A stretch of DNA of 42,166 nucleotides. Origin: Verrucomicrobiota bacterium (GTDB lineage Bacteria; Verrucomicrobiota; Verrucomicrobiia; Opitutales; UBA2995). Below the pieces are notes generated by a model that did not search any database, was not told the DNA's origin, and was given only the letters and a program-made list of their open reading frames with translations. The stretch spans positions 1 through 42,166 of the forward strand of contig JAQBYJ010000043.1 of assembly GCA_027622555.1 (NCBI GenBank), in the 5' to 3' direction. The position numbers were made by a program, and so were the translations under genes. Position 1 is the stretch's first letter. The number at the start of each line of letters is the position of its first letter. Shown here piece by piece: positions 4,407 through 33,478 of the stretch.

Positions 4407-5906
4407 TTAAGACCGCTGGCTGTTAGTCAGCTTTTCAACCAACACGTTTCCAAATAAAGAGAAGAAAAGAAGCGCCAGAATAAATAGAGTAACAGGCCGT
4501 TCTAACAGGTAGCTCCATTGACCACCGCTGATCTGATAAGAGTAAATCAATGATTCTTCAGCCATTCCGCCAAGGAGTATTCCAACGACCGCTGCTGGAA
4601 CGGAGTAATTGAAGCGTTTGAACAACCAGCCAACTATGGAAAAAATCATAACAGTTATCGGCCCCGACATATCTCCGGTCAATCCGAAGGCTCCAAAAAT
4701 GGCCAACGCGAGCACGGAAGGCACCAAGTAGCGCATGGGGACTTTTACTACATTTGCCAGTATCGGGATAAAAAGCAGACCAAGCCCCATGAGTAATACC
4801 GCCTGTCCGAAATTGGCAAAAATAATAGCGTAGACAATGTCTGTTTCTTCCCGAATAAATTGAGGCCCGCCTGTGATGTTGTGCATCGCGAAAGCAGCCA
4901 ACATAACCGCAGTTGCTCCGCCACCCGGAATTCCCAAGGCTAGTAAGGTCGCCATGGACCCTGCCTCAGAGGTGCTGTTGGCCGATTCTGAAGCGACTAC
5001 TCCCGCAGGATTGCCTTGTCCAAACGACTTCGGATTGGCGGCTTGTTTCTTGGTAAGCATGTATGAAACCAAATTGGCAATGGATGAACCCACACCAGGT
5101 ACCGATCCTATAAATACGCCTACCAAACTACCCTTCAGAATAATCCACGGATAACTAATCGTTTTTTTGAATCCGGAAAATATTTCCCTTATGCTTACAA
5201 TCCTGGCTTCGCTGTCCTCGACCAGATAGTTCGTCTTGGCAAGTTTGAACAGTTCGGCGGCCGCAAACATTCCAATCATCGCTGGAATAGCCGGAATGCC
5301 GTCAAGCAGATAAGGACTTCCCATGGTTCCTCGAGACACTCCTGCTTCACTATAACCAACCGTTCCAATCAATAAGCCAATCATCCCGGAAATGATTCCT
5401 TTCAAAAGGCTGCCACCGCTCAAGGTTCCGATTAGGGTTATTCCCCAAAGGATCACGACAGCCATTTCTGCCGGGCCGATTTTTAGGACCAGTTTTGAAA
5501 TAGGACCAATGAGAATAAACAAGATGCTGTATCCGATTATGACTCCAATACACGAAGCACCTAATGCAATCCCAAGCGCGGTGTTGTGCTGACCCTTTCG
5601 CGTCATAGGATATCCATCAAACGACGTTGCAATAGAAGAGGAGGTTCCGGGAATGTTCATCAGAATGGCAGGGATGCTTCCTCCAAATCCTCCACCAGTG
5701 AATATGGAGGTCAGGAAAAGCATGGCTTGTATGAAATCCATATACAGAGTCACTGGCAGGAATATTGCCATGGCCATGGAGATTTGTAACCCCGGCACGG
5801 CTCCGAATAATAATCCGATAAGAATACCCGGAATAATAATCAACCAGTAGGAAGGATTTGAAAACAATTGCGTCAGTCCATCGAACGCTGCTGAATAATC
5901 GATCAT
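4407..5906 (-). CDS. tctA: Tripartite tricarboxylate transporter, large permease TctA
   Basis: This 499-residue membrane protein has the TctA layout: about a dozen transmembrane helices and the repeated Gly/Pro-rich signatures 'GILIGLLFGAVPGLQISMAMAIFLP' near the N-terminus and 'GSVPGVGSSIANLVSY' in the second half, which in this family contact the substrate. It forms the channel that takes carboxylates from a periplasmic binding protein using the ion gradient. The reading frame stays open 41 codons further upstream to 6029, but the ATG at 5906 gives the family's normal length and N-terminus (MIDYSAAFDGL) and overlaps the tctB stop by 4 bp (ATGA), which points to translational coupling. It is the last gene of a probable six-gene operon. 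The substrate is unknown; characterised relatives carry citrate, aromatic acids or other organic acids. Confidence 0.93.
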   Translation of the reverse strand: MIDYSAAFDGLTQLFSNPSYWLIIIPGILIGLLFGAVPGLQISMAMAIFLPVTLYMDFIQAMLFLTSIFTGGGFGGSIPAILMNIPGTSSSIATSFDGYPMTRKGQHNTALGIALGASCIGVIIGYSILFILIGPISKLVLKIGPAEMAVVILWGITLIGTLSGGSLLKGIISGMIGLLIGTVGYSEAGVSRGTMGSPYLLDGIPAIPAMIGMFAAAELFKLAKTNYLVEDSEARIVSIREIFSGFKKTISYPWIILKGSLVGVFIGSVPGVGSSIANLVSYMLTKKQAANPKSFGQGNPAGVVASESANSTSEAGSMATLLALGIPGGGATAVMLAAFAMHNITGGPQFIREETDIVYAIIFANFGQAVLLMGLGLLFIPILANVVKVPMRYLVPSVLALAIFGAFGLTGDMSGPITVMIFSIVGWLFKRFNYSVPAAVVGILLGGMAEESLIYSYQISGGQWSYLLERPVTLFILALLFFSLFGNVLVEKLTNSQRS

Positions 5907-6364
5907 GACGGAAAGACTAACATGGGCATGGGATAAGGAAGCATGGCTGCAAAAAACAATGAGACGATGGAAGCGAAGCACACCGCATAACCAATAATCC
6001 AGGGCCACCGCCGCTCGCCATTGAACCAAAGGAACACAGCGATAAATATTCCAGTACCTACATCAAATCCAAGCCAGGGCAAAGTAAGTGTATACATCAC
6101 AAAAATACCTATAACAGGAAGTACACTTGTTACAGGTTCAACTTCCTCTTCTTCAGGTAACCGACGAAATCCCTGACGAACAAACTGAATCAAACACAGA
6201 ACCAAGATGAGGCCCGTAAGTGGCAGAATAAGTATCAAATTAAGGACATGGGTCGAAGCAGTATGAGCGTCAAAAAAGTACCATACTACCAAACTTGAAA
6301 GAACCAACAGCACCACAAGATCCGCAATCTGATTACCACTGAATGATTTTTTGATTTTGTTCAC
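5903..6364 (-). CDS. tctB: Tripartite tricarboxylate transporter, small permease TctB
   Basis: The 153-residue product contains four predicted transmembrane helices (starting at about residues 14, 38, 80 and 120), the size and topology of TctB. The family is poorly conserved, so the call depends strongly on position: it lies 13 bp after tctC and overlaps tctA by 4 bp. TctB is needed together with TctA for transport, although its exact role is unclear. An acidic stretch (PEEEEVEP) in the loop between helices 2 and 3 is common in this family. Confidence comes mainly from the complete C-B-A gene set. Confidence 0.88.
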   Translation of the reverse strand: MNKIKKSFSGNQIADLVVLLVLSSLVVWYFFDAHTASTHVLNLILILPLTGLILVLCLIQFVRQGFRRLPEEEEVEPVTSVLPVIGIFVMYTLTLPWLGFDVGTGIFIAVFLWFNGERRWPWIIGYAVCFASIVSLFFAAMLPYPMPMLVFPS

Positions 6365-6377
6365 TTTACTCCGACAT

Positions 6378-7394
6378 CTACAACTTCAACAAATAGGAAT
6401 AGTCTTTAAAAATCGTAAAACTTGTCTCCATAATTTTCTCAGATTCTTCGGGCCCTGTCCATCGACTTCCAATATCTGAACGCTTTAATTGTCGCTGAAG
6501 TTCTTCATCCTGCAATGCTCGTTGAAATGCAGAGACAAGAATGTTAAAGCGTTCGGGATGCTGGTGCTTGAATTCGGCGGTAGTCGCGAAACCTCTCGCC
6601 GACCCAGGAAGAACAGGCACTGAGACACCCAATGGTTTCAAGGCCTCATTTATGGAAGGTGCATTCCATTCATCATTTGCCTCATGGCTTACAATCGCTA
6701 ATGGTCGGATATACTCCCGGATGGTTTCGGACCCCGTAGCACTGATAACGATAAAGTCCACCACTCCACCCGCAACAGCGGCACGGGCCTGGCCACCGCT
6801 ATTGTAAGTAACCAGGTTGAGATTTTCTTGAGGAATCCCACTCACTTCAAGAAGAAGCTTGGCCATTAAATGCCCGGCGGAGCCGCGAACCACTGAGGCC
6901 TTGATTGTTTTTGGTTTGTCGCGAATGCCCTGAATGAGTTCAGGTAAATCGCGAAACTTTGACCCTTGGTAAAGCGCAATCAAGTCTTCATCAAACCATT
7001 GAAAATTTATGTAGGCAAAATCGCCTACCGTATATTTGGCATTCCCTTCAAGAATCGTATTCAGGAGGTATGGAGAGAAGGTATTCGCAAATACAGTGTA
7101 TCCATCAGGTGGTTGCCCCAATACATAGTTCGCTCCCAGCAACGTTCCAGCTCCCATTTTATTTATTACCTGGATGGGCTGCCCCAGCTCCTCGGATACG
7201 GTAGTCGACATGGCACGAGCCATCCGATCCGCACTGCCTCCGACCCCGAATGCTACCACCATCGTCACAGGTTTATCAGGATAATCCTGAGCGACACTCG
7301 TATCGGGAAATACAATCAGGAAGCATGACCCGATTAACAAATAAAGGCAAGACAGGCTCATAAACGTCTCTCCACAAATGGTTGATTGCTTCAT
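6378..7394 (-). CDS. tctC: Tripartite tricarboxylate transporter, periplasmic binding protein TctC
   Basis: The 338-residue protein has a signal peptide ending near SVAQ-DYPDKPV, after which comes the family's typical mature start 'YPDKPVTMVVAFGVGGSADRMARAM'. In Bug/TctC receptors this Gly-rich loop and the later 'VRGSAGHLMAKLLLEVSG' and 'VTYNSGGQARAAVAGGVVDF' segments bind the carboxylate of the ligand through main-chain amides and ordered water. A later in-frame ATG at 7361 is possible, but the first start supplies the only early lysine. It lies 67 bp downstream of the TonB-dependent receptor gene, with a strong hairpin in between, and directly before tctB. It presumably receives the compound imported by that receptor; this link is an inference from gene order. 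Confidence 0.93.
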   Translation of the reverse strand: MKQSTICGETFMSLSCLYLLIGSCFLIVFPDTSVAQDYPDKPVTMVVAFGVGGSADRMARAMSTTVSEELGQPIQVINKMGAGTLLGANYVLGQPPDGYTVFANTFSPYLLNTILEGNAKYTVGDFAYINFQWFDEDLIALYQGSKFRDLPELIQGIRDKPKTIKASVVRGSAGHLMAKLLLEVSGIPQENLNLVTYNSGGQARAAVAGGVVDFIVISATGSETIREYIRPLAIVSHEANDEWNAPSINEALKPLGVSVPVLPGSARGFATTAEFKHQHPERFNILVSAFQRALQDEELQRQLKRSDIGSRWTGPEESEKIMETSFTIFKDYSYLLKL

Positions 7395-7404
7395 CGTGCC
7401 GTCC

Positions 7405-7432
7405 AGCCAAGCGGGATTGAACCCGCTTGGCT
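7405..7432. promoter_or_regulatory. Strong intercistronic hairpin before tctC
   Basis: A perfect 11-bp stem (AGCCAAGCGGG with CCCGCTTGGCT) closes a 6-nt loop in the 67-bp gap between the receptor stop and the tctC start, ending ten bases before the tctC ATG. No U-run follows on the minus strand, so it is unlikely to be a simple terminator. An mRNA-stability or processing element that sets different levels of receptor and transporter, or a control on tctC translation, fits better. Confidence 0.6.
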
Positions 7433-7461
7433 AGTCTTTTGAAAGTATAGGCAATGGGTTC

Positions 7462-10400
7462 CTAGAACCTGAACGAATTAGATAAGTAGATTGTGCGTGG
7501 ATTCGGAATACGGATAACGGCCACCTGGCCATCCGGATTGGTTACGACCGGTATATCGTCATTGTCACCGAATGCGTTGCGGATGTTGAGACGGATTCTC
7601 CAATCGATTTTGTCATCCCAAATTCTCCGGCTGAAGGAGGCCCAAAGATCTCCACTGAATAGACCATCATCCAGAAACGGTCTATTGGTATCAGCAAATG
7701 GAATGGGCACTTCAGCGTTCGAATCAAAGGTAGTGACGTATCCGGTTGCAGCTTCATCTTCCCAACGAATAGCTCCCCCGACTTCAAACCCCTTAAGACG
7801 TCCCTCCAAGAATTCGTAGTTGGTTACGCCTGTAAACCGCCATTCTCTTTGTTCAGCCGTTTTGGTACCATCTCGGGCGGTCAATGACACCAATGGTATA
7901 AACCTATCTCTAAACCAAGTGTCCCCTTGGGTACGGTCGGCAACTTGTCTCTGTTGTATCACCTCATACGTACGGGAAGCTCGGCTATTTGCCAAAGCCT
8001 CTTGCCAGACTTTGAGCATGAGCTGTGCGGTGTTGGAATTCACACTTTCCTGTCTGCTTATGTTTGCCAATACTCTCCAGCCAGGGGTCAGACGTGCAAC
8101 CAGTTCAATTTCCATACCCTCTGCCACTAAATCGCGCGTGGAGCTCAGATTTTGAATACGGTCCCAATCGAAAGTATCCCAAGTTCCATCTCCATCGGAA
8201 TCTTCCCGGCGAGGATTGATCAGCGTGGCCATTCCTGCAGGAAGATCTTTTTCAGCCAATTGATAATATTGTTCATAGCTTTGAATGGGAAACGCAGCCG
8301 GATCTCCATTAACCAGGACAAGATTTTCGGCCCAGAGCTTTCCACCCAGTTCCGCCTGGCGGTAAGAGGTCAACTGTCCAATAATGTCCTGAGCAATATC
8401 AGATCCAAAACCTACATCGATTTTCGTTAGACTGGTTTCAAACCAATTTACCTTAACGGAGAATCTGTTCTCTGCGAAAGATGCCGTAAACCCATATTCC
8501 TTAGTCGTGCCTGTGGGCTGACTTATGGTTTGACCCAAGGCATTATTCCTTAAGCCAATCGGATTAAAGTTCTCAGACTCGGCATAATGAGCCTGCAGGT
8601 CCATTCCTTCGGGCAGGCCTCCCAGGATTTTCTCCGGATACCTCCCTACTACGCTCCAAGTAACCGTGTCCCCCGTTTCGACAAGACCTGCAGTCTTTGA
8701 CAGTCTGGTGAACGTAGGATCCCAGCGCCCCTCAGAATCAGTATCGTCGAAACCCACTTCAGACTCACTCGCTCTGCCAAAGCTTTTCGTGTCGTCTTCA
8801 CGATAACCCGCTAGTCCGACAATATGGTTATTCAATAGATAACTCTGCCACGACAGAGCCTTTGATTCAATTTCAGTTCTCCCAATCGATTCTTCCCGCA
8901 GGATTTGTTCGAGAACCCAGGTTCCTCGTTCCACTTTCCTAGGCGCAGGATTACTGGAAGAATATTTACCAACATTCAGCATTTCTGCATAGATACCATC
9001 AAAAGTGTCTCCATGTTGTGGCCTTTGGATATTGATCTGTTGAAGTCGCACATCATCTATGGATTGAAGGCCCAGCAGCGACTCACTGGTATATACCACA
9101 GCGTTAACCACTCTACCCGACTGGTTCAGAAGGCGATTTCTTCCTGCGGAACGACCATCGAAATCAAGACCGTCCAGTGCATCGAGAAGAATGGTTCCAT
9201 GCGTATCGACCTGATAATCGCTGAAGAGACCGGTGAATCGATGCTTTCCAAAATGTTTCAACCAGCCATCGTTTTCCGTAAGGTCAATCTCACCGAAGGC
9301 CGTGATTCTAAATGTCTCACGATCAGTCTCCGAGAATTCGATTTCAGGAAAGACAACCCGTGTATAAGCCCGACCAAAATTGGGATTACGCTGTCCATCG
9401 GTCAGGTACTCCGAAATCGAGACGTAAATGTCATAGGGACCGGCCGTGCTTCCTCCGCCACCTCCGGTAAAAAAGAAATCCTGAGTCGATTCATAATGCT
9501 GATCATCGTAGGCAATATCGATGCCAAATCTATTGTCTAAAAACGTTTGTTCGAGCGCGAAACTCTTTGCATCAAACTCGCGTTCAACGTGGTCAATCCC
9601 ACCGGAATAAACCTTGTTATGATAATCAAATACGTTCCTATTCTGCAAACTAGGGACTGTAAAGCCGGCGGCAAATGGCTCCGCATAGGGACTATTCGTG
9701 TGGTATTCGGTAACCCGTTTCACCTTGGTGCTTCCGGGAGCATCCGCACCGAACGTAGTAATGGCTGCAGCCGTACCAGCTAAACCCGTGCTGTCGAGCG
9801 TATCAGCATTGGTCCACGGGATAGCGCCATAATTGACCTGAAGTCCATCTCCCGTGCCGACATCGGGAATCGCCGAATTCGGATTGGTCCAAGTAATCCC
9901 GGGCCCTTGGAATAAGGATGGGTGCACATTGGTGAAAATCTGATTCTCCTTGTTTAAGATAAACGGATTGTAGGTTTCCTGGAATTTCCAGTTACCTCCC
10001 TCACTAGGGGATATAACATTGGCTGTAGGCTTCGAACCAGTGAATTGCTCAAGGTTGGCAGGAGTAGGTTCAAACCATCCATGGTAAGCGACTGAGGGCG
10101 GGATGATTTCCACGGGCGATCCTTTGGAATTACCGGTTTCATAATTGGTCTTAAACCGCGTTTCACCCAGGAAATTGCTGTTTTCATTTTTAAATAAGAC
10201 CGCCGTTAAAGTGGCAAATAGACGTTCATCTCGATTCCAGGCTGGTTCCTGTTTAAACTCTGCATCGTCATGCAGGCCGGCTATTCTCAGAGCAACTCGA
10301 TCATTGGCAAAGCTCCGGTTAATATCGAGCTCCGTCCTCAAGCTACCGTAATTATCAAACCTGATTTTAACTTCTCCAAAGTTTTCGCCCATGAGTGCTT

Positions 10401-11361
10401 CTTTCAAACTGTTATCAATCACTCCTCCCGCACTTCCGATGCCGAAGAGCAATGAATTGGGCCCCCTGCTGATGGTGACCCGGCTCGTATTGTAACTATC
10501 GAATGGAATGTCCGTCAAAAAGAGTCCCCGGGTAAGATCGGCACTTAGGATACCTCGAACCCGTTGATTGCTTTGCGGATTCGTTCGCTGACTTGAAATG
10601 TCGACCCGGCTGGGATGGACATCGGCCCCGCCGGCAAAATTGCCATGATTGCCACCGACTTCCGTATTCGCGGTGTAAGATAACAAAGACCCGGCATCCG
10701 TAGCACTGAGGTCTTCCATTAGCTCGGAGGTCACCACTGAAATAGCGGCACCCAAATCATTCAGATCCGTTCGAATGCGCGTGCCCGATAAGGTGGATGT
10801 TGCGGTGTACCCACTATCCTCTGAGGCATCCACGGTAAATGGGCTGAGTTCAAAGATGTTTTCCGTGTCGTCCTCCTGAGCGTTGAGTGTGCCAGAATTA
10901 CCAGCAACGCCAAGTGTTAGCACCGTGGCCAGTGTTTTTAAAAAGTTCTTTTTTTTAGGAGTCATTTCAGTTTGAGATTCTTGAGTTGTTTTTAATGTTG
11001 GTTGATCGCTTTGGCCAAGGAGTTCATTTTCACCTGGCAGTTCCTGATTGGTAATACCGAATGCTTTACCATCACTAACCGGGACGACCACGAGTTGGGT
11101 GCCCTCCAACATCAGTTCCAACGCTTCTCGAACAGGGAATCTCCCTTTTACCGAATGCGTAGTAACTCCTCTTACAATCTCTGCTGCGTAGAGAAGTTGG
11201 ATTCGACCTTGCTCCGAAGCGGTGACAAGCGTGTCCACCGCCGGACCGGATTCGATGTCGAAACTTTCTTCCCTCTCCTCGGCACCACTCAATAGAGTAC
11301 AGAACATCAACGTTCCAGCGAGTGCCGGAACTCTGATCACCTTCCAAACAAAGGGTGTCAT
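7462..11361 (-). CDS. TonB-dependent receptor with N-terminal STN signalling domain
   Basis: The 1299-residue outer-membrane protein begins with a signal peptide and an STN (secretin/TonB short N-terminal) domain at about residues 33-105 ('FDIESGPAVDTLVTASEQ', 'LLYAAEIV', 'VREALELMLEGTQL'), the part that in FecA-type receptors touches the anti-sigma factor. A second signal-peptide-like segment follows at 133-162 (MTPKKKNFLKTL...LNAQ). Then comes the usual receptor start (ELSPFTVDASEDSGYTA), the plug (about 185-330, with 'VTISRGPNSLLFGIGSAGG') and a large barrel ending in '...YLSNSFRF', with the C-terminal Phe needed for barrel insertion. It lies downstream of the sigma and FecR genes and upstream of tctCBA, so it probably both senses and imports the ligand. 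The ATG at Met133 (10965) is a possible second start giving a receptor without STN. The receptor call is certain; the ligand is unknown. Confidence 0.95.
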   Translation of the reverse strand: MTPFVWKVIRVPALAGTLMFCTLLSGAEEREESFDIESGPAVDTLVTASEQGRIQLLYAAEIVRGVTTHSVKGRFPVREALELMLEGTQLVVVPVSDGKAFGITNQELPGENELLGQSDQPTLKTTQESQTEMTPKKKNFLKTLATVLTLGVAGNSGTLNAQEDDTENIFELSPFTVDASEDSGYTATSTLSGTRIRTDLNDLGAAISVVTSELMEDLSATDAGSLLSYTANTEVGGNHGNFAGGADVHPSRVDISSQRTNPQSNQRVRGILSADLTRGLFLTDIPFDSYNTSRVTISRGPNSLLFGIGSAGGVIDNSLKEALMGENFGEVKIRFDNYGSLRTELDINRSFANDRVALRIAGLHDDAEFKQEPAWNRDERLFATLTAVLFKNENSNFLGETRFKTNYETGNSKGSPVEIIPPSVAYHGWFEPTPANLEQFTGSKPTANVISPSEGGNWKFQETYNPFILNKENQIFTNVHPSLFQGPGITWTNPNSAIPDVGTGDGLQVNYGAIPWTNADTLDSTGLAGTAAAITTFGADAPGSTKVKRVTEYHTNSPYAEPFAAGFTVPSLQNRNVFDYHNKVYSGGIDHVEREFDAKSFALEQTFLDNRFGIDIAYDDQHYESTQDFFFTGGGGGSTAGPYDIYVSISEYLTDGQRNPNFGRAYTRVVFPEIEFSETDRETFRITAFGEIDLTENDGWLKHFGKHRFTGLFSDYQVDTHGTILLDALDGLDFDGRSAGRNRLLNQSGRVVNAVVYTSESLLGLQSIDDVRLQQINIQRPQHGDTFDGIYAEMLNVGKYSSSNPAPRKVERGTWVLEQILREESIGRTEIESKALSWQSYLLNNHIVGLAGYREDDTKSFGRASESEVGFDDTDSEGRWDPTFTRLSKTAGLVETGDTVTWSVVGRYPEKILGGLPEGMDLQAHYAESENFNPIGLRNNALGQTISQPTGTTKEYGFTASFAENRFSVKVNWFETSLTKIDVGFGSDIAQDIIGQLTSYRQAELGGKLWAENLVLVNGDPAAFPIQSYEQYYQLAEKDLPAGMATLINPRREDSDGDGTWDTFDWDRIQNLSSTRDLVAEGMEIELVARLTPGWRVLANISRQESVNSNTAQLMLKVWQEALANSRASRTYEVIQQRQVADRTQGDTWFRDRFIPLVSLTARDGTKTAEQREWRFTGVTNYEFLEGRLKGFEVGGAIRWEDEAATGYVTTFDSNAEVPIPFADTNRPFLDDGLFSGDLWASFSRRIWDDKIDWRIRLNIRNAFGDNDDIPVVTNPDGQVAVIRIPNPRTIYLSNSFRF

Positions 11362-11430
11362 TTGAGATCTGCAGGTTGAGATAGTTAAAAGTCATCGAAG
11401 GCGGGTTTGCTCTTCGAGACACCGAGTCAG

Positions 11431-11445
11431 CTTAGTATTACTAAG
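11431..11445. promoter_or_regulatory. Palindrome upstream of receptor gene, possible operator
   Basis: CTTAGTATTACTAAG has two perfect 7-bp arms about one centre base and lies 70 bp before the receptor ATG, in an A+T-rich 236-bp gap after the FecR gene. A palindrome of this length is expected a few times by chance in a window this size; only its position makes it a candidate for a regulator site or part of the receptor promoter. Confidence 0.3.
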
Positions 11446-11597
11446 ACTATTTTAACTTTTTTCTTAAAGCACCAAAAATAGAAAATTTAAAACTCAACAA
11501 GGAAATACACACGGGCTTTCTGAATAAATACGAGACGAACGCAAGATTGCTATAAGGTTATCCGATCTTCAAAGTGCGACGTTGGAATTTCGAGAAA

Positions 11598-12656
11598 TTA
11601 ACGTTTTTTGCGAAGAACAATAACAGACTCGCCTACCTTCTCGCCCTCAATGCCCTGAGTGACTTCCAAAACCTTAACAAAGGCATCTACATTGTTAGGC
11701 ACAAATGCTCCCGTCAATTCCAGCCCCCTGATTTCAGGATCTTCGATCGTAATCTGAGTATAGTTTCGGCGATTAAATTCATTAACGATGTCTGAAAGAG
11801 GAGCAGCCTGGAAACTAAGGACTTGTTTCAACCAGGAGAGTTGTTGCTCGATTTCCACGGTCGAAACTGTTTGGACCAACGCTTCAGGTTCTGCCGTTTT
11901 CAGATCGAACACGGATCGCTGACCAGCAGACAAATGCTGGGTAGGAACACCCAGCAAATCGAGAGGCTGATCGAAGGTCTCAGTATCCCGGTGGTCAACA
12001 GCCACACGTCCCTCGGTGACCAACACGCTTACGGAATCCTCTTTGATTTGAACATTGAAGATGGTACCAATGGCTTGAACAGCAACACCACGGGCATTCA
12101 CAATGAAAGGACGATCCGGGTCTTTAGTTATGGTAAAGTGGGCCTCGCCCGATTCGAGCGTTACCTGCCGCATATTTTTTGAAAATTCAACCAGTGCTTG
12201 AGAACCTCGATTTAACTCCACAATGGAGCCATCTTCCAAGCGATGCCGCTCATACCTTAATGCGAAACCTCCTGCTGCAAGTTGTATCGATTTAGAAACC
12301 TCCTCTTTACTCACAACATTCCAGGAAACGAATCCAATTACCACGGCAGCGGCTAATCCAGTCACAAAAAGAATTATATTACCAAAGGAATTTGAACGGT
12401 CCTTAGAGGAGGAGGCCTGTAACAAATCAGGATTAGGTTTAAGGCTGTGCTCGGGTCGCCACTCCGCCAGTGAATCCAATTCGCTCCAAACCTGGCGACG
12501 TCTAGAAAATGCTTCAGCGTGCTCGGGATCTGCAGCAAGCCATTCAAAAAATGCGTCCTGTTCCTCAGCGGTGAACCCTATGCTTTGCTTTATCGCCCAC
12601 TTAGATGCCTCAATGTCCTTAGGCCGCTCTTCGGGGTTCTGTGATTCCTTACTCAT
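11598..12656 (-). CDS. FecR-type transmembrane anti-sigma regulator
   Basis: The 352-residue protein has the full FecR architecture. A cytoplasmic sigma-binding N-domain comes first ('EASKWAIKQSIGFTAEEQDAFFEWLAADPEHAEAF', the DUF4880 pattern). One transmembrane helix spans about 92-115. A periplasmic FecR beta-rich domain follows at about 125-225 ('YRHRLEDGSIVELNRGSQ'-like motif, 'VTLESGEAHFTI', 'VQAIGTIFNV'). The C-terminal STN-like domain at about 285-352 ('FQAAPLSDIVNEFNRRN') would meet the receptor's STN domain. An ATG at 12698 is in frame, but the ATG at 12656 overlaps the sigma stop by 4 bp (ATGA) and has AGGA upstream, so I prefer it. It should hold or activate the adjacent ECF sigma factor depending on receptor occupancy. 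Family and role are well supported; whether it inhibits, activates or does both is not visible. Confidence 0.93.
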   Translation of the reverse strand: MSKESQNPEERPKDIEASKWAIKQSIGFTAEEQDAFFEWLAADPEHAEAFSRRRQVWSELDSLAEWRPEHSLKPNPDLLQASSSKDRSNSFGNIILFVTGLAAAVVIGFVSWNVVSKEEVSKSIQLAAGGFALRYERHRLEDGSIVELNRGSQALVEFSKNMRQVTLESGEAHFTITKDPDRPFIVNARGVAVQAIGTIFNVQIKEDSVSVLVTEGRVAVDHRDTETFDQPLDLLGVPTQHLSAGQRSVFDLKTAEPEALVQTVSTVEIEQQLSWLKQVLSFQAAPLSDIVNEFNRRNYTQITIEDPEIRGLELTGAFVPNNVDAFVKVLEVTQGIEGEKVGESVIVLRKKR

Positions 12657-13189
12657 GATAACTGTATCCTGTTGCGACTCTGGATAAATTTCGTGCATTT
12701 ATCCAGCCCGATATAAAGTTGGTTGTAGACCGTGGTGTCGGAAAGCTCCAGTTCCTTGGCAATCTCTCGTGGCAGCATGCCGTAGACCTTATATAAGGTG
12801 AAAATCTGCCTACAACGTTTCGGAAGAGTCTGTATGGCGAGTGTCAGAGTTTCGAGCTCCTGGTTTCGCTCAATAATTTCGTGGATATCCTCTCCGTTAT
12901 CGAGCATGTCAAAATCATCACCCTTGTAGTGAATGTTTTCGCCACGAACGGCCGCTGCGCGGACTGCGTTGAGTGCAATATTTCGTGCTGTTGCAAATAG
13001 AAAAGCCTTCGGTGCCAAAATTGGCTTCTCCTTATAAGCCTTCAATACCCGCAGGTAAGCTTCCTGAACAATATCATCCAGATCCAAATCCCGGGCAAAT
13101 CGACTCCTTAACCATGCCCGGAGCATAGGTTCATGCGGATGTAAATGATCCGCAAACCATTGATTTTCCTCTGAAAGACAGTCAGTCAT
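12653..13189 (-). CDS. ECF-type RNA polymerase sigma factor (FecI-like)
   Basis: This 178-residue sigma-70 family protein has region 2 at about 25-90 ('LRSRFARDLDLDDIVQEAYLRVLKAY', then 'PKAFLFATARNIALNAVR') for core binding and -10 recognition, and region 4 at about 120-170 ('LPKRCRQIFTLYKVYGMLPREIAKELELSDTTVYNQL') for -35 recognition. There is no sigma region 1 or 3, as expected for ECF factors. AGGGA sits directly before the ATG. It opens the operon with the FecR gene overlapping by 4 bp, the classic FecI-FecR-receptor order. Its likely targets are the receptor-tct genes and perhaps the neighbouring lyase and sulfatase genes; that regulon is an inference. Confidence 0.95.
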   Translation of the reverse strand: MTDCLSEENQWFADHLHPHEPMLRAWLRSRFARDLDLDDIVQEAYLRVLKAYKEKPILAPKAFLFATARNIALNAVRAAAVRGENIHYKGDDFDMLDNGEDIHEIIERNQELETLTLAIQTLPKRCRQIFTLYKVYGMLPREIAKELELSDTTVYNQLYIGLDKCTKFIQSRNRIQLS

Positions 13190-13443: not shown

Positions 13444-14814
13444 CTACTTATCGCGCCCGTCCCAGAGAAAAGCCTCCCCAGGATTTTCGCGACCGTCCCA
13501 GCCATAGAACAGGAGCATGTTTTTCATGGGCTCTTTCATCGCGTTGGAAATATACTGAATGTTCTGGTAGTGCATCCCGCGAACGGGTGAGAGGTCCTTT
13601 TCTTTTTCCCAACTAGCGCCGTCATCCGCGGAGGTCCAATGTTCGATACCCAATCCATAACCGTATTCGTCCATGCCTTCTTCGATGACCTTCTCGCCAC
13701 TGCCGGTGATCATTGTGGCATGGTACACGCCATCCTCCGCTTGTTCCAGGTAGCTGGAGTTGAAGGGATGAAGTGTTTTGGTGATCTGCACCGTTCTCCA
13801 CTCATTTTGCTCGTGGGAGACAAAATAGAAATGAGACCGAAGAATATCATCTTCATCGGAAACAGGTAATAGGAAATGCGGTTTGTCATCCTTATCCAAT
13901 GAAATGGAAGGACCTGCCACAGCGGGACGCTCGTCCGTGTCCCAAACCAGTAGTTTCTCATCGGCGGTTTTTTTCCTTACCGGCAATTCCACTTCCTCGC
14001 CCTGGATATTGTAGGCTTTGCCGGAAGGAAGATCGACATAGAGGTAGTAGAGATTGTAGCGCTGGGTATGGTCGTGAAGAATTTCATTGTAACGGGTATT
14101 GAACACGGGATCTTCCACTTTCCAGATGAAGGCAATGTGCAGTCGCTTTCCATCGGCACTGACGGCAGTCGTATTGTAGGATCCGGAAAATGAAGCCCAC
14201 TTACCATCCTGAGGTTCGCCGCTTAAATTGATCGCAGGCTTGGGCAGTTCATCCCAGGTGCGACCTCCGTCTCCGGAAATATGATACCACCAATAGCCCA
14301 GGTGTCCGGATAAACGTGAATAAATCAAAATCTGGTCATTGTAGATGCGATGCACCTTGGGGTAAGAAATGGATTCCGATATATCCGGACCACGAACCCA
14401 GCGTTCAGCGGAACCGGGTTTCGCAGATATGAGATGCATCCCTTTGGTCCGATGACAACCATGCAAGACATGGAGATAATTATCGGAGTCCGACCAGATA
14501 ACCGGAGCTAAATGATGATCTCTCTCATAGTGCCGCAAGTCAGCCTCATCTTCATAGCCGACCATTAGATTGAGAGATTTTGAAAATTCTCTCTTCTTGA
14601 GGTCATAGCTAATAACAAAAGGATGTCCGTCTGCTCCCCGCCAGACAGCAAACATGGTTTCGTCCACCACCACCGCCTGGGGGTACATGCGATTGTCGTA
14701 GAACATTTTCAGTGTCCCGTTGTTGGCGAAGGAAGTGACCTTGGCGTGAGAGACACTTTGGCCAAACAATAGAGCAGCTAACAAAAGTAAAATTTGAATC
14801 TTTATTTTTCTCAT
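13444..14814 (-). CDS. Secreted BNR-4 beta-propeller protein, candidate ulvan-lyase-type polysaccharide lyase
   Basis: The 456-residue product has a signal peptide (cleavage near SHA, residue 24) and a repeated propeller pattern including a BNR box ('ISGDGGRTWDE') and 'TSADDGASWEKE'. Residues His101 (in RDHHLAP), His121 (in LHGCH), Tyr151 (in SISYPKV) and Arg167 (in LIYSR) are placed like the catalytic set of the seven-bladed ulvan lyases of families PL24/PL25: the two histidines are 20 apart and Tyr to Arg is 16 apart, the spacing I recall for PL25. Such enzymes split sulfated rhamnose-uronate chains by beta-elimination. TTG at 14832 is in frame, but the ATG at 14814 gives a normal signal peptide. 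It sits just upstream of the sigma/receptor/tct operon and near sulfatases, which suits the role. BNR-4 membership is likely; lyase activity is inferred from motif spacing. Confidence 0.7.
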   Translation of the reverse strand: MRKIKIQILLLLAALLFGQSVSHAKVTSFANNGTLKMFYDNRMYPQAVVVDETMFAVWRGADGHPFVISYDLKKREFSKSLNLMVGYEDEADLRHYERDHHLAPVIWSDSDNYLHVLHGCHRTKGMHLISAKPGSAERWVRGPDISESISYPKVHRIYNDQILIYSRLSGHLGYWWYHISGDGGRTWDELPKPAINLSGEPQDGKWASFSGSYNTTAVSADGKRLHIAFIWKVEDPVFNTRYNEILHDHTQRYNLYYLYVDLPSGKAYNIQGEEVELPVRKKTADEKLLVWDTDERPAVAGPSISLDKDDKPHFLLPVSDEDDILRSHFYFVSHEQNEWRTVQITKTLHPFNSSYLEQAEDGVYHATMITGSGEKVIEEGMDEYGYGLGIEHWTSADDGASWEKEKDLSPVRGMHYQNIQYISNAMKEPMKNMLLFYGWDGRENPGEAFLWDGRDK

Positions 14815-14953
14815 TGTTCTAATTTCTTTCAACAGAGGCAGGACTATTGCGCGTGCCTTGGCGAAGCTTTAGCGAAGACTGGTCCTCGCAGTGCCGCGGC
14901 TAATCCAAGAACGGCATAGCCAGAGGCTATTGCCCTACCCATCCTGCAAGTCT

Positions 14954-31660: not shown

Positions 31661-33478
31661 CTAGTTTCTATTCCACGGAAAACTCATCGTTGGCTGACCG
31701 ACATACCTCTCATTTGAAATAACGAGACGCGTGCCACATCCCGGTTCCAATCGCACAACAAAGGTCGTGCTATCCACTTTCACTGAATCCTTACCGTGTT
31801 TGACCTGGGTAATCCTATGTTCACCGTAGGCTCCAGCCTGGACAATCAACTCTCTCGCCTCTGATTGGTTTACATTTACCAGAGTTACCGAAACCTGCTC
31901 ATCACTCACTTGGTCAATCAGCGCAGCGACGTCCTCCGGAATCCCAGCCCTCCGATTCACCGGATCGAAGTAACGCAAGCGACAATGAAGCGGAGCAGCG
32001 CCCCGGCCGGGATCAAGTCCAGCCATCATCAATTTGTTCAAAGTGTCGACGGTTGCCGGGTTAAAAGCCATCGGATCATCAGCCAGGCGGGTGTCGGGCG
32101 TGGTCAGGTCGGCACGCATTCCCGCTACACGAGTGCGAATCGTTCCAAAATCCTTCCCCAATTCACGAGCAGGGAAGTCATCATCGTCGCCGTTAAGATA
32201 TCTCACCCAGGGATCGTTCTTCACACGAGCCTTGTCCTTTTCGTCCATGGTCCAGAACCAGCAATTCAACAATCCCCAGGAAACCGGGTTCGGTTGAAAG
32301 TCATACCAGCCATCATCCCCATACATGTTTGGGTAACGCCGGACACCATCGATCATTTTTGAATTGGAATTCACAATATCGATCATACGAGTCCAGGCAT
32401 CGATATACTTCCGATCTCCCGTGAGCAGATAGGCATTTCCAAATCCATCCACCGCGCGATAGACACGGGTCCGGTGGGCCAGTTCACCGGTTTGAGGAAC
32501 CTCAACTGAGAACCCCCAACCATAGACGCTACCCCACCATTTGCCATCCGTTTCACCACCAATGGTTCCGTCGAGTCCGACGCTGGAGGGAATGATGCCG
32601 TTGTTATCCTTCATACGTTTGAGCCAGGCATCGGCGTAGTCGACCAACCATTTTTTGTACTTTGCTTCACCGGTCAGGATATAGGCGTTCGAAGCCAAGG
32701 TCATGGAGGACATGTTCTGCGGATGGTCTCCGAGGATGTCGTTGTAATCTTTAAAATGCGCGACCATCTCAGCATAGTTACGCTCACCATGACCTAAATG
32801 AAAGCGGTTTTCCACCTCGATGGGATCACCCGCCCAATCGAGCCCCGTGGTCTTGCGCATCAATGGTCCCCGGCTGCCGTTGAACATGCTCCGGATGATC
32901 TGATGCTCGAAGTCGAAATTCTGCGCACCCGGATCTTCGTTCATGTAAAATCCGGCAAAGCGTCGCACCCTGTTTTGGAAATCAAGGCTATCCGGATCGG
33001 ATAACCCTTGCAGATTAAAGACCCGCAATCCTTCTCCGTTATGCATCCAATCCATCATGACGGGAAACTCTTTATAATACATGCCGTCGCGGGCAAAGGG
33101 CACATCTGTCGTCTTCGCTTCCGTGTATTGCCTGAGGTGACCTTCCCAGGCTTTACGATACATCGTGAGAATGGCGTCATCCCCACCCAACGCATGCAGA
33201 ATCGGCCAGTCTGCCACATTCTCAATCGCATCGTCCGGTCCGTCGTCTCCTCCCCATCGTTCCACACACAAAAGGTAACCGCGTTCATCAAAGTATTTTT
33301 CAAAAAACTCCGAGCAGGCGACGGTATGAGCCCTGAGCAACTCGCGTTCAAGCAATGCCCATTCCGGTGGCGCCATTGGGGAACTAACGTCGATAACAAC
33401 GGAGCGGGCGAATCCATTAATGGAAAGAAGAAAGGAGGAAGAAAAAACTAAATATCTGAGTAAGCGAATATGTTTCAT
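31661..33478 (-). CDS. Secreted protein of unknown function, candidate alpha-toroid polysaccharide-active enzyme
   Basis: The 605-residue protein has a signal peptide (cleavage near GFARS, residue 25). I do not recognise a named family. The body looks like an (alpha/alpha) toroid: helical segments alternate with Trp/Tyr/Asp-rich loops such as 'CVERWGGDDGPDDAIENVADWPIL', 'FEHQIIRSMFNGSRGPLM', 'FHLGHGERNYAEMVAHFKDYNDILGDHP' and 'ASNAYILTGEAKYKKWLVDYADAWLKRM'. The last 90 residues are beta-rich, ending '...PGCGTRLVISNERY', like an all-beta sandwich. This arrangement is common in uronate lyases and in GH88/GH105-type or GH127-type enzymes. The gene stands between a PL10 lyase and two sulfatases in one direction, which supports a role in the same degradation pathway. 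Activity is inferred from context and overall shape only. Confidence 0.6.
   Translation of the reverse strand: MKHIRLLRYLVFSSSFLLSINGFARSVVIDVSSPMAPPEWALLERELLRAHTVACSEFFEKYFDERGYLLCVERWGGDDGPDDAIENVADWPILHALGGDDAILTMYRKAWEGHLRQYTEAKTTDVPFARDGMYYKEFPVMMDWMHNGEGLRVFNLQGLSDPDSLDFQNRVRRFAGFYMNEDPGAQNFDFEHQIIRSMFNGSRGPLMRKTTGLDWAGDPIEVENRFHLGHGERNYAEMVAHFKDYNDILGDHPQNMSSMTLASNAYILTGEAKYKKWLVDYADAWLKRMKDNNGIIPSSVGLDGTIGGETDGKWWGSVYGWGFSVEVPQTGELAHRTRVYRAVDGFGNAYLLTGDRKYIDAWTRMIDIVNSNSKMIDGVRRYPNMYGDDGWYDFQPNPVSWGLLNCWFWTMDEKDKARVKNDPWVRYLNGDDDDFPARELGKDFGTIRTRVAGMRADLTTPDTRLADDPMAFNPATVDTLNKLMMAGLDPGRGAAPLHCRLRYFDPVNRRAGIPEDVAALIDQVSDEQVSVTLVNVNQSEARELIVQAGAYGEHRITQVKHGKDSVKVDSTTFVVRLEPGCGTRLVISNERYVGQPTMSFPWNRN

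Follow-up and report, generated by a model that had tools for sequence, protein, structure and literature searches.

TonB-dependent receptors are usually discussed together with ABC, MFS or similar importers. The closest published counterparts to the locus described here are the opdH-tctCBA operon of Pseudomonas aeruginosa (PMC4513871), in which an outer-membrane gene and tctCBA form one operon induced by its carboxylate, and the literature on cell-surface signalling (CSS), in which the FecIRA and FoxIRA systems (PMC9249621, PMC11637429) present an extracytoplasmic function (ECF) sigma factor, a FecR-type anti-sigma factor and an STN-bearing TonB receptor in that order. In a 42,166-nucleotide stretch of Opitutales DNA (hereafter the window, meaning the whole stretch analysed: contig JAQBYJ010000043.1, which is C43 in a 6.0-Mb assembly of 238 contigs), the same three genes in the same order are followed by a complete tctCBA set. 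Word searches of the open-access literature returned no description of a FecI-FecR-receptor unit joined to tripartite tricarboxylate transporter (TTT) genes, an absence that is itself weak evidence. The six genes lie on the minus strand at 4407-13189 and were identified by Pfam matches above curated cut-offs:

12653..13189, minus strand: ECF sigma factor (FecI-like), 178 aa; Pfam Sigma70_r2 and r4_2 over cut-off, TIGR02937
11598..12656, minus strand: FecR-type anti-sigma factor, 352 aa; Pfam FecR PF04773, DUF4880 and FecR_C over cut-off
7462..11361, minus strand: TonB-dependent receptor/transducer, 1299 aa; Pfam STN PF07660 (11074-11202) and Plug PF07715 (10420-10764) over cut-off
6378..7394, minus strand: TctC solute-binding protein, 338 aa; Pfam PF03401, E 3.6e-13
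5903..6364, minus strand: TctB small membrane subunit, 153 aa, GTG start; Pfam PF07331, E 2.9e-11
4407..5906, minus strand: TctA large membrane subunit, 499 aa; Pfam PF01970, E 6.5e-119

The adjacent ECF sigma factor, FecR anti-sigma factor and TonB receptor with an N-terminal STN domain have the gene arrangement of a FecIRA-type system, and TctC, TctB and TctA encoded together that of a TTT transporter (TC 2.A.80). Read from the sequence, the sigma factor and fecR genes share a 4-bp ATGA overlap, as do tctB and tctA (for fecR the overlap arises with a start at 12656, the mechanical open reading frame opening upstream at 12698), and the remaining gaps are 13 bp (tctC-tctB), 67 bp (receptor-tctC) and 236 bp (fecR-receptor). 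Gene number, strand, order and spacing are all as an earlier sequence-only reading of the window had described them. Four features taken up below had escaped that reading: an inverted repeat in the 67-bp gap, a GTGTCTC element ahead of the receptor, a segment within the receptor that resembles a signal peptide, and a PL25-like gene at 13444-14832.

That reading would have been refuted by a lack of conservation in related genomes, but one further genome has the six-gene order. Genome contigs were scanned with TctA, whose 80 nearest homologues are 57-87% identical to that of the window and derive mostly from Opitutales and Gammaproteobacteria, and flanks were then annotated; the nearest tctCBA is held by G064, a genome of the same genus. 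In L137, a locus in a second Opitutales genome, the order sigma-FecR-receptor-TctC-TctB-TctA is the same, with identities to the window of 44% (sigma factor), 35% (FecR), 68% (receptor), 74% (TctC), 69% (TctB) and 87% (TctA), and because this second genome comes from a separate assembly the recurrence argues that the arrangement is not chance. Sister receptors 49-52% identical to that of the window (L047, L056, L041 and L152) lie in tight operons with other TTT transporters, comprising the receptor, a protein of a 605-aa type with no Pfam family, a VPS10/BNR protein, a TctC-TctB fusion and TctA, followed in L056 by MR_MLE and RraA genes. The L137 order and the operons of the sister receptors make the receptor body and tctCBA look, at the sequence level, like a pair.

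Receptors and TTT genes are also found close together elsewhere. In the complete genome G032, four of the seven TctC genes lie less than 7 kb from a TonB receptor (P ~4e-4 against random placement, to which joint clustering in polysaccharide islands could contribute). In eight loci of marine Gammaproteobacteria (L060-L066 and L069, of which L061 and L062 are apparently one species or a duplicate) a TonB receptor is less than 10 kb from the orthologous tctCBA, upstream and on the same strand in L063 and L064; in Halomonas, Vibrio and Arcobacter/Sulfurospirillum the loci include TctDE but lack a receptor. If TonB receptors and TTTs are recurrent partners in Verrucomicrobiota, organic acids would have a defined route from the outer to the inner membrane, and receptor ligands could be predicted from TctC binding.

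Several features of these related loci may be recorded in their own right. With the operon of L056, L152, L041 and L047, the same family has a second receptor-TTT system. Of the family's other TctC genes, about half encode TctC-TctB fusions 436-456 aa long (L056:9707-11038, with Pfam matches to TctC and TctB; L041, L042, L045, L047, L048, L052, L054, L150, L152 and L154, with TctB-like tails); a review of TTT systems mentions only rare TctAB fusions (PMC5812351). The window itself encodes a 605-aa protein (31661-33478), adjoining a gene for a pectate lyase like those of polysaccharide lyase family 10 (PL10); homologues of the 605-aa protein lie in the operons of L056, L152, L041 and L047. It has no Pfam match and no convincing PDB match, and its AlphaFold model (predicted local distance difference test score, pLDDT, 37) is unusable. 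Finally, in this marine clade a gene for a ModA-like (SBP_bac_11) solute-binding protein lies directly before tctC in L061, L063, L064, L065, L068, L069 and L073, overlapping it in several, and would provide a second binding protein for the TTT transporter.

The explanation that we favour, with moderate confidence, is that a CSS receptor is paired with a TTT carboxylate importer. We infer that a ligand on the TonB-dependent receptor would alter the contact between STN and FecR and release the ECF sigma factor, which would then transcribe the receptor gene from a GTGTCTC-type promoter:

11416..11422, minus strand: GTGTCTC, a candidate promoter element for the ECF sigma factor, about 60 nt before the receptor start; motif shared within the sigma subclade

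Once the receptor had carried the ligand (or a complex that bears a carboxylate) to the periplasm, TctC would capture it for import by TctAB. Read-through from the receptor gene probably adds to tctCBA expression, and a palindrome before tctC, described below, would give the transporter local control of its own through an operator-binding regulator or an RNA hairpin. As ligand, a small dicarboxylate or tricarboxylate is most likely, for instance citrate, tricarballylate or aconitate, either free or bound to a metal.

The distribution of the candidate promoter element fits a sigma-specific promoter for the receptor. First, GTGTCT[C/A] occurs at -60 to -67 before the receptor start in each of the four loci that form the window's sigma subclade (the window, L146, L139 and L161), and it is absent from the tctC gap of the window. 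Second, the loci of another sigma subclade (L138, L142 and L166) have CGTCTCTGGAG at -38. Third, L137, which has another sigma factor, has neither GTGTCT[C/A] nor CGTCTCTGGAG before its receptor. Across all 34 gaps the motif is present in 15 against a shuffle mean of 8.1, a modest enrichment, and it is only the fixed position within the sigma subclade, not the general enrichment, that is informative.

The signalling genes and the receptor body have different phylogenies. In the phylogeny built from concatenated sigma-FecR pairs of 43 loci, the window groups with L146, L139 and L161 (100/100) and not with L137, and a forced grouping of the window with L137 is rejected (p 0.013, to be taken with caution as L137 is a long branch). 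In the tree of receptor bodies, the window and L137 are sisters (100/100), with plugs 80% and barrels 71% identical, and the alternative pairing of the window with L146 is rejected by the approximately unbiased (AU) test (p 5e-6). L139 (G064:C214) illustrates the same point, having a window-type sigma factor and FecR (57 and 52% identical) and STN attached to an unrelated receptor body (16 and 13%). Over about 80 residues the STN domains of L146, L139 and L137 are 52%, 48% and 43% identical to that of the window. Together, the two trees and L139 indicate that signalling genes and receptors have been exchanged relative to each other. This mismatch between signalling and the receptor-transporter pair shows that regulation can be swapped independently of cargo, a point of relevance to the rewiring of uptake in polysaccharide degraders. 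The L139 receptor barrel belongs to another TonB-receptor subfamily.

The receptor also has a segment buried between STN and plug:

10876..10965, minus strand: signal-peptide-like segment MTPKKKNFLKTLATVLTLGVAGNSGTLNAQ, receptor residues 133-162, between STN and plug; read from the translation

The segment has a K-rich start, a hydrophobic core and AQ before an acidic stretch. By a simple scoring rule a similar internal segment is present in 21 of 31 FecR-linked Opitutales receptors (it is found also in L137, L138, L142, L145-L147, L163, L166, L168, L170, L171, L173, L178, L182, L192, L194 and L198, among others); it is often absent in family f13, and it is absent in L139. One speculative account, which is more probably wrong than right by some distance, is that surface signalling is a transferable cap, with sigma factor, FecR and STN joined before complete TonB-receptor genes that keep their own signal peptide, the buried peptide either releasing the STN or making an STN-less receptor. 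If true, the STN cleavage proposed for FoxA (PMC11637429) would have a built-in counterpart here, and one receptor-transporter pair could be placed under different sigma factors.

The 67-bp gap between receptor and tctC contains the palindrome:

7405..7432, no strand assigned: 11-bp perfect inverted repeat AGCCAAGCGGG-N6-CCCGCTTGGCT in the receptor-tctC gap; from the sequence

Its core, CAAGCGG-N8-CCGCTTG (7408-7429), ends 13 nt before the tctC ATG. The exact core is present once per genome in the genomes of the window, L137 and L067, always 13 nt before the tctC ATG, and the window and L137 agree in both arms and in a few bases following them but differ in the loop and elsewhere in the gap. 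The gap folds well as RNA (z -5.4 in the window and -5.0 in L137), and there are no compensatory changes supporting an RNA stem; with no sequence difference in the core arms, this comparison does not distinguish a DNA operator from an RNA hairpin. Identical arms would suit a DNA operator at least as well as an RNA hairpin, and the window spacer, which looks inverted relative to that of L137, points weakly to an operator. A single-site palindrome in this position would be a specific and testable control element.

Other identities for the palindrome were considered and rejected. It is not an intrinsic terminator, the hairpin having no T-run on the minus strand in either the window or L137; it is not a repetitive extragenic palindromic (REP)-like repeat, being unique in the genome; and it is not a receptor-junction element, as L067 has the core without a receptor. 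Rfam gave no match at E up to 1.

A number of observations weigh against the favoured explanation, and especially against a single FecI-driven transcript. First, FecI-FecR-receptor genes lie directly upstream of tctCBA in only two (the window and L137) of the five Opitutales loci with this tctCBA (the window, L137, L058, L073 and L067), and among about 45 FecR-linked loci across the order, L137 is the only one besides the window with tctC directly downstream of the receptor. Second, L058/L038 has a TonB receptor of another subfamily directly before tctC with an intrinsic terminator between them (FecI-FecR status at L058 is not judgeable, as the contig ends inside the receptor), and in L073 a sigma-FecR-receptor set adjoins tctCBA but is convergent with it. 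Third, in L067 sulfatase genes flank tctCBA on both sides, and the exact palindrome core is kept although no receptor precedes tctC in the 6.2-kb contig. Because of L067 the palindrome is assigned to tctCBA, which would thus have its own, putative, cis-control, and since the palindrome is retained where no receptor precedes tctC, it is unlikely that tctCBA is merely the tail of a FecI operon. Finally, FecI-FecR does not form a stable part of the unit, because the sigma-FecR lineages of the window and L137 differ and only the two loci have these genes directly upstream. Of the coupling proposed by the sequence-only reading, the pairing of receptor and transporter is supported by the L137 order and the sister TTT operons, whereas the case for a single six-gene regulon driven by FecI is weakened by the separate cis-control and the exchanged signalling genes.

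These observations raise the alternative that the locus consists of two independent neighbours, an ordinary FecI-FecR-receptor unit and a separately promoted, horizontally acquired tctCBA, adjacent in the window and L137 through shared descent and not function. The palindrome that goes with tctCBA even without a receptor and the terminator of L058 are consistent with this, as is the presence of six similar-sized FecR units in the window's own genome, only this one of which was seen beside a TTT. The origin of tctCBA points the same way: the TctCBA of the five Opitutales loci are monophyletic (100/100), and because this clade nests among marine gammaproteobacterial sequences, acquisition from marine Gammaproteobacteria is likely. 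In the same tree the sister of L137 is L067 (100/100) and not the window, so either one lineage has lost the receptor or the pair has moved from one lineage to another. No TctD/TctE two-component genes were found in as much flanking sequence as is available for the window, L137, L058 and L067, and the L073 flank has only a 37% TctD-like match. Nonetheless, L137 keeps the order despite a differing sigma/FecR lineage, a TonB receptor lies directly before tctC in L058 and within 10 kb of it in several marine Gammaproteobacteria, and the sister receptors are in operons with other TTTs, and we consider two independent units to be rather unlikely.

For the ligand of the paired receptor and transporter, a tricarboxylate-like compound is placed ahead of a uronate, without certainty. 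TcuA (tricarballylate dehydrogenase, over one NCBIfam cut-off) is encoded just after tctA in L069 and relatives, AcnD of the methylcitrate pathway is encoded near tctCBA in L068, and TctDE is the usual neighbour. A TTT for alginate oligosaccharides was shown experimentally in Vibrio sp. C42 (PMC13390454), and membership of this type is judged by more than 45% identity together with pocket residues F19, G24, T25, D26, P104, G183 and T225. The window TctC is 27% identical to the alginate TTT-C, whose essential G24, T25, P104, G183 and T225 it replaces by S, A, E, T and S. Because TctC falls outside the alginate-oligosaccharide type and its relatives adjoin tricarballylate dehydrogenase, a uronate, named by the sequence-only reading alongside an organic acid, is not the leading candidate. 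Counting in the other direction, no TcuA was found in the window's own genome at E 1e-20, and the window contains, besides the PL10-like gene and four sulfatases, a lyase-like gene next to the sigma factor gene:

13444..14832, minus strand: BNR_4 protein, a distant relative of PL25 ulvan lyases, neighbour and possible functional partner; Pfam BNR_4; ulvan lyase PL25 5uam/5uas, E 4e-11

These neighbours keep a uronate in consideration. The receptor may take up unsaturated oligo-uronides released by the PL25-like lyase and sulfatases, with TctCBA carrying a uronate or oligo-uronide, and the directly upstream position of the PL25-like gene, the sulfatases flanking tctCBA in L067, the sister receptors found with TTT, RraA and MR_MLE genes (the MR_MLE family has sugar-acid dehydratases among its members), and the proven alginate transporter of Vibrio sp. 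C42 are in line with such a role. Given the altered TctC pocket and the location of marine gammaproteobacterial relatives beside TcuA and TctDE, import of acidic sugars nevertheless appears unlikely. Ferric-citrate-type scavenging is a sub-case of the favoured explanation, in which the receptor would import a metal-carboxylate complex and TctCBA would take the carboxylate, so that citrate would serve as a carbon source. Ferric citrate is the best-known case of FecIRA-like signalling, TctC is of the tricarboxylate type, and the plug region is nearest to FhuA/FoxA among named models, with a low score; this plug similarity is generic, however, the barrel has no PDB match, the closest receptors adjoin lyase-like and sulfatase genes, and the window shows no iron ABC importer, all of which make scavenging of this kind very improbable.

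The locus shares with opdH-tctCBA/TctDE the association of an outer-membrane gene with tctCBA, but opdH encodes a porin under a two-component regulator (PMC4513871), and here there is a TonB receptor with STN together with an ECF sigma factor and FecR. It shares its signalling genes with FecIRA and FoxIRA, but in place of an iron ABC importer it has a TTT as the inner-membrane partner, and its receptor has the signal-peptide-like segment between STN and plug. The marine gammaproteobacterial loci L061-L066 have orthologous TctCBA (TctA 76-77%) and, in or beside the cluster, a TonB receptor, which is of another subfamily; they also have a ModA-like protein and, in some, TcuA, and they carry TctDE where the window has FecI-FecR. 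The alginate locus of Vibrio sp. C42 (PMC13390454) likewise has a TTT transporter in a marine polysaccharide setting, although its outer-membrane component is a porin, whereas the window has a TonB receptor and a TctC that is distant and different in its pocket residues.

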